A stretch of DNA of 64,000 bases. Source: Leptospiraceae bacterium (GTDB taxonomy: Bacteria > Spirochaetota > Leptospiria > Leptospirales > Leptospiraceae). Positions 57,697 to 60,875 of this stretch are shown piece after piece. A program made the translations under genes and the position numbers. The stretch spans positions 693,001-757,000 of the forward strand of contig JABTUZ010000001.1 of the NCBI GenBank assembly GCA_015075105.1. The letters run 5' to 3'. Position 1 is the first letter of the stretch, and each line of letters begins with the position of its first letter. Below the pieces are notes generated by a model. It was given only the letters and a program-made list of their open reading frames with translations. It was not told where the DNA came from and did no database searches.

Positions 57697-57716
57697 TAAA
57701 TACTATGCCGATGGCC
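57697..57716. repeat. 20-bp direct repeat of tRNA-Leu 3' end, left copy (att-like)
   Basis: TAAATACTATGCCGATGGCC is identical to 60783-60802, which spans the last 11 bases of the tRNA-Leu(CAA) gene and nine bases beyond it. To the right the left copy retains a weak, decayed resemblance to the tRNA T arm (GAATTTCGATCCG). This is the pattern left by site-specific integration at a tRNA 3' end. Confidence 0.75.
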
Positions 57717-57754
57717 ATAGAATTTCGATCCGTAGAGAGAAATTCTGGGGTTTG

Positions 57755-57801
57755 AAATCTTAGATTTCAAAAGGGTGGAGAAGAACCGGAGGTTGGATTC
57801 C
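57755..57801. repeat. 47-bp direct repeat, left copy
   Basis: The sequence differs from 60691-60737 by a single base. It begins AAATCTTAGATTTCAAAAGG and ends near ACCGGAGGTTGGATTCC. The left copy is part of the dyad TTTGAAATC-TTA-GATTTCAAA. Order of the repeat pairs is B-A at the left and A-B at the right (B being the 20-bp repeat), all in the same orientation. Confidence 0.85.
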
Positions 57802-57811
57802 GTAAATCACT

Positions 57812-57958
57812 GTTTCGGATGAAAGGGTCGCTGAACAGTTTATTGAAAATCTGTATTCGCAATTTTTTTGTGGTTATAAATTTTTTCAGCATAGACTTCC
57901 TTGTGATCAGACACCTAAGCAGATAGGAAGGCTTGCTTTATTTTTTGTATTGAAATAA
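57812..57958 (+). pseudogene. IS5-family transposase N-terminal fragment
   Basis: The plus-strand frame reads VSDERVAEQFIENLYSQFFC and GYKFFQHRLPCDQTPK. It matches the start of IS5-type transposases, which typically have V-x-E-x-F-x-E-N-P-Y-x-Q-Y-F-C-G-x-x-x-F-Q-H-x-x-P. The similarity ends there, and a stop follows at 57956. The rest of the gene, including the DDE residues, is missing. Confidence 0.75.
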
Positions 57959-58030
57959 AAGCCCATCCTCCGACAAAAGATAAGCTTTTAGAAATAATTG
58001 AATACATTCTTTAACTCTACAATAGTAAAA

Positions 58031-58753
58031 TCAGAAAGCAATTCCGAAGCTAACATGGATTTGAAGAAAATTTTTCTTTGGCTTATATGAATCCATTTCA
58101 TTTTGCTTCCTTATGAGATAATATTCAGTAATTCTAGAATTGGATCCAGAGAAAAAAGTGGACGCATCTGGAAATATCGAGTATTTTTTTTGAATTCGTC
58201 CGGGTATATGGTTAAAACCGGCATCAATGCCTAAAAATATACCATTCGAAAAAATATGTTTGTATCCTGTTCCAAATCCGATATATGGACTGGGGATTTG
58301 TTCTACCCTTTGACCATATGGTAGTGCTGGGGATATACTGCCACTAGAGTCCAATAAGAAAATGTCTGAGTTTTCCCTAAAAAAACCAGGAGTTTTTCCA
58401 AGAAAACCGCTTATGAAAAATCCATTGTTTTGAAAAGGATAATAACTAAATACAGCACGACCTGTTGTTCCTTTCACTCCAATAACTTCTTTCGTATGCA
58501 ATATACTGGAAATCGAAGGATAGATATTTTCCTTTTCCGTAATCCGGTTCATTGTGCCGAAACTAATGCTAAAAGAAATTGAGGGCGAAAAGAAATACTC
58601 AACGCTTAAGTTTTTTGGAGAAATAACTCCTACCTGAATATTTTTTTCTTTTCTTAGGTCTCCTTGAAATTTAGACTCTGTGATTTGAGCATGTAAATGT
58701 TCATAACTCATTGCCAGTATGATAAAAAAACAATAAACAATATTATTTTTCAT
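58031..58753 (-). CDS. Exported beta-barrel-like protein
   Basis: The ATG at 58753 is preferred over a TTG at 58768; the product of 240 aa begins with a signal peptide MKNNIVYCFFIILAMSYEHL ending near HAQ. The sequence alternates polar and hydrophobic residues, has aromatic-rich strands and ends in HVSFGIAF with a terminal phenylalanine, as in outer-membrane proteins. It could be a small outer-membrane protein; this is an inference. It lies 54 bases downstream of the lipoprotein gene in the island. Confidence 0.72.
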   Translation of the reverse strand: MKNNIVYCFFIILAMSYEHLHAQITESKFQGDLRKEKNIQVGVISPKNLSVEYFFSPSISFSISFGTMNRITEKENIYPSISSILHTKEVIGVKGTTGRAVFSYYPFQNNGFFISGFLGKTPGFFRENSDIFLLDSSGSISPALPYGQRVEQIPSPYIGFGTGYKHIFSNGIFLGIDAGFNHIPGRIQKKYSIFPDASTFFSGSNSRITEYYLIRKQNEMDSYKPKKNFLQIHVSFGIAF

Positions 58754-58807
58754 AATCTTAATTCTCAAAATAACCTTTAAGTTTGTTTAACATTTTATAA
58801 ATCTCTC

Positions 58808-59512
58808 CTACCAACTAGCTACCGGAAAGCTTACGTTAATGTTTCCTCCCGATCCACATAAAGATTCGTATTTCAATACGGTAGGATTACCGGAAATAGC
58901 ACGAAACCACCAGCATCCTACGGCTGCAGGCCAGAAAGCTCCTCCCATATCAATTCTGCCCCATACAGTATAACAAGCAAGAGTATCATAACATCCATCA
59001 AACCAATTCTGGTGTACAGTCGTTGAAGCAGCCCTAATTTCAAGTGATGGATTTTGTCCTAGATTTTTGTAATCAGGTTCCGGAGTATCTTTAAAAATTT
59101 TTGCCAGCTCAGATTTGAACTTTTCTTTATCACTCGCACTATTGGTAAGAGTGTTTACAGATGACTCGCTTAGCTTTGCTTTTTCTTTGATAACGTTTAC
59201 AACTGTAATTTTTTCTTCTTTTGAGAAATTATTTGTAATAGCTTGGGCTTTCTGTTCAATTAACGTCTCAATTCCTTCATTGACAGAATTTTTTATCGAT
59301 CCATTCGGTTTGAATGAATTATAGTCTGCCATAAATTTGTCCGCTTTATCTCGAGAAGATTCCGTAACCAATATTCCTAAAACGACCAGGTCTTTTTTCT
59401 TTGCAACTGCCGGATCCCCGGAACCTACACAATTTAAGATTGGCATAATGCTCATTGCAACCAAAATTGAACCCAATGCAATTTTTCCAAATCTATTTAT
59501 TTTCACTTTCAT
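58808..59512 (-). CDS. Lipoprotein with Cys/Trp-rich C-terminal domain
   Basis: AAAGGAG upstream supports the ATG at 59512. The 234-aa product has a signal peptide ending in the lipobox MSIMPILNCVGSG. A helical, charged region (about 40-150) is followed by a compact C-terminal domain rich in cysteine, tryptophan and glycine: HQNWFDGCYDTLACYTVWGR, GCWWFRAISG and SLCGSGGNINVSF. The cysteines could form disulfides outside the cytoplasm. No family is recognised. It sits between the PilZ gene and the beta-barrel-like gene, all on the minus strand. Confidence 0.75.
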   Translation of the reverse strand: MKVKINRFGKIALGSILVAMSIMPILNCVGSGDPAVAKKKDLVVLGILVTESSRDKADKFMADYNSFKPNGSIKNSVNEGIETLIEQKAQAITNNFSKEEKITVVNVIKEKAKLSESSVNTLTNSASDKEKFKSELAKIFKDTPEPDYKNLGQNPSLEIRAASTTVHQNWFDGCYDTLACYTVWGRIDMGGAFWPAAVGCWWFRAISGNPTVLKYESLCGSGGNINVSFPVASW

Positions 59513-59547
59513 AAACTTCTCTCCTTTGCTTTTCATGATCTTTACCA

Positions 59548-60244
59548 TTAAGCCGTTTCTAATTTTTTTATGAATTGAGATATTTTTTGCTTATTAATTC
59601 TATTCAGATTTCGATATGCAAACCCAATTCCGTAGGTTTCGATTCTTACTGCCCCACATTCGCATTTTATTTCGTCCGCCAATTCTACACTATAGCCATG
59701 ATTCAACTGAAAAGAATCAGGATTATCAAGTTGTAGCAAGAATCCACTGGTGCTTAAGTCTTTTGATTTACATTTTTTTCCGTTCAAGCTAATACATGTT
59801 TCAATCGGGAATCTTTTCTGCCCCCTCCACCCCCTTGGAAACATATCGAAATAAGGTGCAGCTACATCGTTTCTGGTTATATAGATTACCAGAGCTATCC
59901 CGATTATAGTTTGTAAGGAAGTTTGAATATTGTAGTAGCTGAAATTCGAAACGAGCAGGTAAATATTCCAGCTGATCAGCAATATTCCATAAACTAGAAA
60001 AGAGAACCATCCTTATTTGGTAATTCTCAAAATTCCCACACCAATCAAGGATAGGAGACACAATGAAAATAAGCTCAATTATTTTTAGTTTTTCAAAAAC
60101 TGTGCTTAATTGATTTAGAGGAATTCCGTGAATTCTCGCAAGATTTATGATATTTACTAATGGTGCTAAAAAAAGGATAATTGATAAAATTATCAAACTT
60201 AATGGCTTTTTGTTTCTTTTTCTTCGATCTGTCATGAAAACCAT
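59548..60244 (-). pseudogene. Membrane PilZ-domain protein gene with one frameshift
   Basis: The N-terminal part (from 60244) encodes PLSLIILSIILFLAPLVNII and another membrane segment. At about 59997-60012 the frame must shift, because the next membrane helices (LVYGILLISWNIYLLVSNFS and IIGIALVIYI) and the PilZ domain are read one frame over. The PilZ domain keeps the cyclic-di-GMP motifs RGQKR and KDLSTSGFLLQ. If the shift is real the full protein is not made; if it is a sequencing error it is an intact receptor of about 230 aa. The stop overlaps the upstream leader of the lipoprotein gene. Confidence 0.7.
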
Positions 60245-60319
60245 TCAAAAAAAAAAATATGTCAATATTGATTTAGTAATTTTTTAAATAAATTACTAAG
60301 AATTAACAATTATTATTTA

Positions 60320-60336
60320 TGCGAAATATTTTCGCA
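60320..60336. promoter_or_regulatory. Perfect 7+7 dyad in the island
   Basis: TGCGAAA and TTTCGCA are exact complements three bases apart, about 80 bases upstream of the start of the PilZ gene (60244, minus strand). The position fits an operator for the island genes; it could also be a recombination site. Confidence 0.4.
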
Positions 60337-60690
60337 CAATTGCATCAATCAATTTCTAGTAGCCTGTATTGAAATTTGCTTGTAATCTAATGTGGGTTTG
60401 ATATAGAAAAGAAAAATTTTGTGCCTAAAACGCCAGATCATATGTTGAGCCATAACTTTTCGAAAAAAGAGGTTTAATATCGATCTATAACGATATTTTG
60501 TGTAATCGACGATTATTGTGTAGCAATAAAAATAATTTTTTGTAAAGCTATTTTCAGTGGTAGGAGTCCTCGGAGGAATCAAAAATTTCAGCTTTCTATA
60601 AGGATTTGTGATAATCGCAGAATATATTTGTGCGTACTTAATGAACTGGCTGAAAGGGAAAAGTAAATTGCGGGCTAATTTTATTGCCTC

Positions 60691-60737
60691 AAATCTTAGA
60701 TTTCAAAAGGGTGGAGAAGAACCGGAGGTTAGATTCC
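60691..60737. repeat. 47-bp direct repeat, right copy
   Basis: This is the partner of 57755-57801 with one mismatch (G to A near the end). It lies 45 bases from the right 20-bp repeat, compared with 38 bases for the left pair. Confidence 0.85.
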
Positions 60738-60782
60738 TGATTGAAATAGGGATATCTTACTAAAATTACATAAAGAAAAAAA

Positions 60783-60802
60783 TAAATACTATGCCGATGG
60801 CC
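60783..60802. repeat. 20-bp direct repeat, right copy overlapping tRNA-Leu 3' end
   Basis: Identical to 57697-57716. It covers the acceptor 3' strand of tRNA-Leu(CAA) and nine bases of its downstream flank, the usual core of tRNA attachment sites. Confidence 0.75.
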
Positions 60803-60875
60803 GGAATCGAACCGGCACGGAGTTGCCCCCGGAGGATTTTGAATCCACTGCGTCTACCAATTTCACCACATCGGC
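60792..60875 (-). tRNA. tRNA-Leu (anticodon CAA)
   Basis: On the minus strand GCCGATG at the 5' end pairs with CATCGGC at the 3' end, followed by discriminator A at 60792. The anticodon loop is TTCAAAA with anticodon CAA. A long variable arm marks it as class II. The T loop is GGTTCGATTCC. Its 3' end is duplicated 3.1 kb away. Confidence 0.95.

Follow-up and report, generated by a model that had tools for sequence, protein, structure and literature searches.

Positions 57697-60802 of the window (the whole stretch of DNA analyzed, 64,000 nucleotides) hold a small island of genes that adjoins an intact tRNA-Leu(CAA) gene and is framed by two nested pairs of direct repeats, here called T (outer) and B (inner). 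Listed by increasing coordinate, the features are as follows.

57697-57716, minus strand: T_L, the far repeat of the tRNA-Leu(CAA) 3' end: 11 nt of the gene and 9 nt of trailer, matching T_R at 20/20 positions
57717-57754, unstranded: 38-bp end segment just inside T_L, with the inverted repeat AGAATTTC...GAAATTCT in its sequence
57755-57801, unstranded: B_L, 47-bp repeat; its minus strand starts with GGAATCCAACC, which matches the T-arm of tRNA-Leu(CAA) in inverted orientation apart from one mismatch
57808-57916, plus strand: transposase gene relic, 87% identical to C1:152962-153070 of the same genome
58031-58768, minus strand: outer-membrane beta-barrel protein, 245 aa, with a predicted CarO/OmpA-like fold (weak homologues, structure model)
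58808-59548, minus strand: lipoprotein-like protein, 246 aa, with a lipobox-like PILNC and a Cys/Trp-rich C-terminal half; an orphan
59548-60244, minus strand: PilZ membrane protein gene, frameshifted (frames 59801-60244 and 59548-59982; PilZ E 2.2e-5)
60691-60737, unstranded: B_R, 47-bp repeat; its minus strand starts with GGAATCTAACC, 54 nt past the tRNA-Leu(CAA) end
60738-60782, unstranded: 45-bp end segment that separates B_R from T_R
60783-60802, minus strand: T_R, the 3' end of tRNA-Leu(CAA) plus 9 nt of trailer, matching the T repeat
60792-60875, minus strand: tRNA-Leu(CAA), the target gene, intact (RF00005, 51.5 bits)

The T repeat (TAAATACTATGCCGATGGCC) comprises the last 11 nt of tRNA-Leu(CAA) and 9 nt beyond the gene. 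Its two copies are identical over 20/20 positions (24/25 when extended) and lie 3,086 bp apart, start to start. The B copies match at 46/47 positions, and all copies of both repeats are direct, in the window order T-38-B...B-45-T. Both pairs, including their nested order, are thus as the preliminary description of this DNA had given them (20 bp at a distance of 3.1 kb; 47 bp with one mismatch). Read in the direction of the tRNA, B opens with GGAATC[T/C]AACC, which is the tRNA-Leu(CAA) T-arm in inverted orientation, with one mismatch. Dispersed repeats, named in the same description as a possible source of T and B, are rejected, as both are unique to the island in the searches made: B has only two copies in the whole genome and no match in 40 relatives, genome_contigs or viral_contigs, and a tRNA-flank search of the genome located T at its two island sites only. 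An integron gene cassette is likewise rejected for want of an attC site (GTTRRRY occurs in both B copies, with no RYYYAAC within ~150 bp upstream).

The corresponding site was compared in seven relatives of the family (G001-G007), none of the same genus. Four of them (G001, G005, G006 and G007) have an empty site, with the gene order thioesterase, tRNA-Leu(CAA), 251-aa gene, amidase, the tRNA and the 251-aa gene being only a few bases apart. In the window, these genes lie on either side of the island. At tRNA-Leu(CAA) the remaining three (G002, G003 and G004) have a different far neighbor, and the three island genes are absent there from all seven relatives. Because four relatives show the empty site, the 3,086-bp insert is a lineage-specific insertion at the tRNA 3' end, in a comparison with family members of other genera. 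The empty-site check that had been proposed earlier therefore came out in favor of insertion.

The contents of the island are ordinary and decaying, combining a frameshifted PilZ gene with a transposase relic. Three minus-strand genes had been described; the beta-barrel, lipoprotein and PilZ genes are there, but the PilZ gene is not intact and the transposase fragment at 57808-57916 has to be added. The two PilZ frames overlap, and both align in order to single intact homologues; barring a sequencing error, the gene is a frameshifted pseudogene. The transposase relic starts 6 bp inside B_L and is found at two other places in the genome. Weak homologues of the beta-barrel protein occur elsewhere in the genomes of family relatives, and its structure model (pLDDT 71.9) has CarO as the best Foldseek match (E 1.4e-6), with a TM score of only 0.44. 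The lipoprotein has no homologue in 60 relatives, genome_contigs, viral_contigs, plasmids or phages, and its structure model is too poor for use (pLDDT 39).

The absence of an integrase from the island, noted from the start, was borne out: no integrase, excisionase, relaxase or replication gene, intact or as a relic, lies within it, and PHROGs and Pfam searches of the island returned no phage, packaging, regulator or mobility genes. The suggestion that it might be a satellite does not survive this result. A phage satellite (PICI-like) is rejected, given an island without integrase, regulator, replication or packaging genes, in which one gene is a pseudogene. Elsewhere, the genome encodes four tyrosine recombinases, namely XerC, XerD and two Xer/integron-integrase-like proteins (L047:9274-10428 and L049:9784-10443, which sit among defense or mobile genes). 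There is no tRNA within the roughly 20 kb examined around each of the four genes.

Repeats of tRNA 3' ends turn out to be a wider feature of the family. In a survey of 188 distinct tRNA downstream regions from the source genome and related family genomes, 3'-end repeats of at least 13 bp were found at 16 tRNAs, compared with 3 for a control using the tRNA 5' half; among the 16, two A+T-rich matches several kilobases off are probably due to chance. Apart from the island, the convincing cases are gene-free units of 78-364 bp, often in tandem. They occur in the source genome at Tyr, Arg(TCG) and Leu(GAG), along with a tandem copy of Glu; in G003 at Leu(CAA), Leu(TAG), Tyr, Asp, Arg(TCT), Asn and Met; in G002 at Leu(TAA); and in G007 at Leu(GAG). 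At tRNA-Leu(CAA) of G003, the very tRNA that the island adjoins, two 135-bp units stand in tandem, with tRNA-end copies of 23 bp, while tRNA-Leu(CAA) genes from 18 sister-family genomes have no comparable repeat. An inverted copy of the T-arm (at most two mismatches) lies downstream of 7/12 tRNAs with repeats versus 5/130 without (Fisher P 2.7e-6; 1.9e-5 excluding the island), and its position past G002 tRNA-Leu(TAA) is 57 nt, compared with 54 nt in the island. The preliminary description had read the tRNA-end repeat as the mark of integration. Insertion at the tRNA 3' end stands, given the four empty sites, but the repeat is weaker evidence for an integrase than was supposed, because short cargo-free tRNA-end repeats are common in this family.

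Several of these units deserve description in their own right. The Tyr (L087:331-560), Arg(TCG) (L095; C2:390216-390272) and Leu(GAG) (L105/L107; C1:1395219-1395350) units of the source genome are non-coding, and the tRNA 3'-end copies that bound them begin at C56 of the T-loop. Over 57 bp, the unit at Arg(TCG) is 82% identical to that at Leu(GAG), and the rest of the genome contains no comparable match. At tRNA-Glu (L079:159-309), a degenerate tandem copy of most of the gene lies directly downstream, with a 78-bp period. Strong folding is seen in G003 Leu(TAG) (L161, z -6.9, tandem units with a period of 182 bp), G002 Leu(TAA) (L207, z -4.4) and G003 Arg(TCT) (L172, z -4.0). Several hairpins in these three carry GGA in the loop, reminiscent of CsrA targets; a role of the mini-elements as a CsrA sponge is not claimed, as the enrichment is not significant and hairpin counts are not above shuffles in single units (P 0.09-0.49 where present). 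In G003, one and the same structured element, which opens with an inverted T-arm and has AGGA-loop hairpins, adjoins both tRNA-Asp (L168) and tRNA-Met (L166), which suggests mobility between tRNAs. No known RNA family except tRNA was recognized in the short units or in the island ends, and the literature searched, with subscription journals mostly outside it, holds no description of such tRNA-end units.

How closely does the island resemble these units? Collapsed at B, it reduces to T-45-B-38-T, a sequence of 150 bp that falls inside the size range of the others. It has the distal copy of the tRNA 3' end and, no more than about 60 nt beyond the tRNA, the inverted copy of its own T-arm (at +54, with one mismatch, at the start of B), and the inverted repeat just inside T_L parallels hairpins in other units. 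On the other side, the primary-sequence similarity between the non-coding island ends and other units is no better than that of shuffles, although such similarity is likewise not common to all of the known units. The collapsed unit folds little above shuffles (z -1.4, versus -1.7 to -6.9 in other units), the island ends do without the GGA-loop hairpins that some units have, and T_L begins at -10, where several other units begin at the T-loop (-17). A 150-bp form free of cargo was seen in none of the genomes compared, all of them from outside the genus.

The explanation that we favor is that a resident tRNA-end mini-element was split at B by 2.9 kb of cargo. It is preferred because of the inverted T-arm at B, the inverted repeat inside T_L and the 150-bp size of the collapsed unit. 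We would put its chances at about even, because the link between island and units is one of architecture, with no sequence match and a collapsed unit that is not unusually structured. Its demonstrated parts are the insertion relative to other genomes, both repeat pairs, the decay of the contents and the presence, at other tRNAs, of cargo-free units similar in size and build. The proposed history would begin with the arrival behind tRNA-Leu(CAA) of a ~150-bp unit that reads T-45-B-38-T in the tRNA direction. Units of this class would open with the inverted T-arm of their own tRNA, represented in the island by the beginning of B, and close with a second copy of the tRNA 3' end, and it is because of this terminal copy that the tRNA would stay intact. 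Subsequently, 2.9 kb of ordinary, non-mobile genes beside a transposase would have come between two copies of B, either because a B-carrying circle recombined with the resident B, or because the cargo entered a tandem array of two units and took the place of the T that separated them. Recombination between the B copies would be predicted to yield the 150-bp cargo-free unit, and recombination between the T copies to restore the bare tRNA.

Other histories have to be weighed against this one. Chance repeats or an assembly artifact would have nothing in their favor beyond A+T-rich sequence, and can be set aside with little hesitation: the repeats are far longer than chance would give (the longest seldom exceeds 16 bp in 6-kb Markov simulations), the position of T coincides exactly with the end of the tRNA, and the site is empty in four relatives. 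Two unrelated, successive insertions, of a tRNA-targeted element and then of transposon-borne cargo with B as its target duplication, would fit the proximity of the transposase relic to B_L. We regard this as improbable, however. Target duplications of insertion sequences are normally far shorter than 47 bp, no transposon ends are recognized at B_R, and B contains a tRNA-like motif.

A more serious competitor is a decayed integrative element (CIME-like), in which a circle with the attachment site B-T-B (attP) integrated once at the tRNA-Leu 3' end, through a tyrosine recombinase that acted in trans or has since been deleted; T would be the att core and B the putative flanking recombinase-binding repeats. 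It had been stated earlier that a single insertion cannot produce the nested order of the repeats. That objection fails, because one circle with attP B-T-B that integrates once gives exactly T-B...B-T. The block of identity at the tRNA 3' end, the restored tRNA and the empty site in relatives all suit such an element, as do the nearly equal distances, 45 and 38 bp, that would separate T from the two B copies on the predicted circle. The genome also has two Xer/integron-type recombinases beyond XerC and XerD, and there is precedent for elements without an integrase, both in CIMEs as defined (PMC5704250) and in Dehalococcoides islands with a 20-bp repeat of the ssrA end (PMC3146451). Against it stand the lack within the island of any gene, even as a relic, for an integrase, excisionase, relaxase or replication protein, the fact that neither extra recombinase lies beside a tRNA, and the 47-bp length of B, a long stretch for an arm site. 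It would also leave unexplained why B opens with an inverted T-arm and why cargo-free units occur throughout the clade. We consider it a real possibility, albeit a less probable one than a mini-element split by cargo, which remains our preferred explanation.

If a mini-element is indeed what was split, it might belong to an undescribed class, carried by this family, that inserts at the 3' ends of different tRNAs, each member framed by the sequence of its own target (an inverted T-arm at the start, the tRNA 3' end at the far boundary), arranged in tandem arrays and occasionally with protein-coding cargo between units. We put this forward as a speculative generalization, more doubtful than the history of the island itself. 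Were it true, a new insertion mechanism would be implied, because one fixed attP cannot yield target-specific frames. The island itself is minor, a small decaying insert of ordinary genes. It is useful as a pointer: it shows that, in this clade, a repeat of a tRNA end does not have to signal an integrase island, and it draws attention to a group of tRNA-end mini-elements, which copy target sequence and have seemingly moved between tRNAs. These are the more interesting lead.

Among known systems, the closest comparisons are with integrase-less islands. A CIME (cis-mobilizable element) is a remnant of an ICE or IME that lacks an integrase and is flanked by attL and attR (PMC5704250). Like a CIME, the island has tRNA-end direct repeats that restore the 3' end of the target and leave the tRNA intact, no integrase or transfer genes, decaying cargo and an empty, attB-like site in relatives. 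It differs in having no sign of ICE or IME ancestry (neither a relic nor an integrase-bearing relative was found that would point to descent from an ICE, IME or prophage, the transposase scrap being the only trace of mobility) and in its extra inner 47-bp pair, which carries the inverted T-arm copy. In Dehalococcoides, ssrA islands without an integration module are bounded by a 20-bp repeat of the ssrA end (PMC3146451). These share with the island a 20-bp repeat of the end of an RNA gene, the lack of an integrase and tandem accretion; unlike it, they have integrase-bearing sister islands in the same array, of which none were seen here. By analogy, the island resembles, and may be, a CIME or an integrase-less tRNA-bounded island. 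The cargo-free units of the family, in turn, differ from it in having no genes and no primary sequence in common with its ends, but share with it a copy of their own tRNA 3' end at the far boundary, an inverted T-arm at the start, a size of ~150 bp and a tendency to tandem arrangement, and one of them, in G003, occupies the same tRNA as the island.
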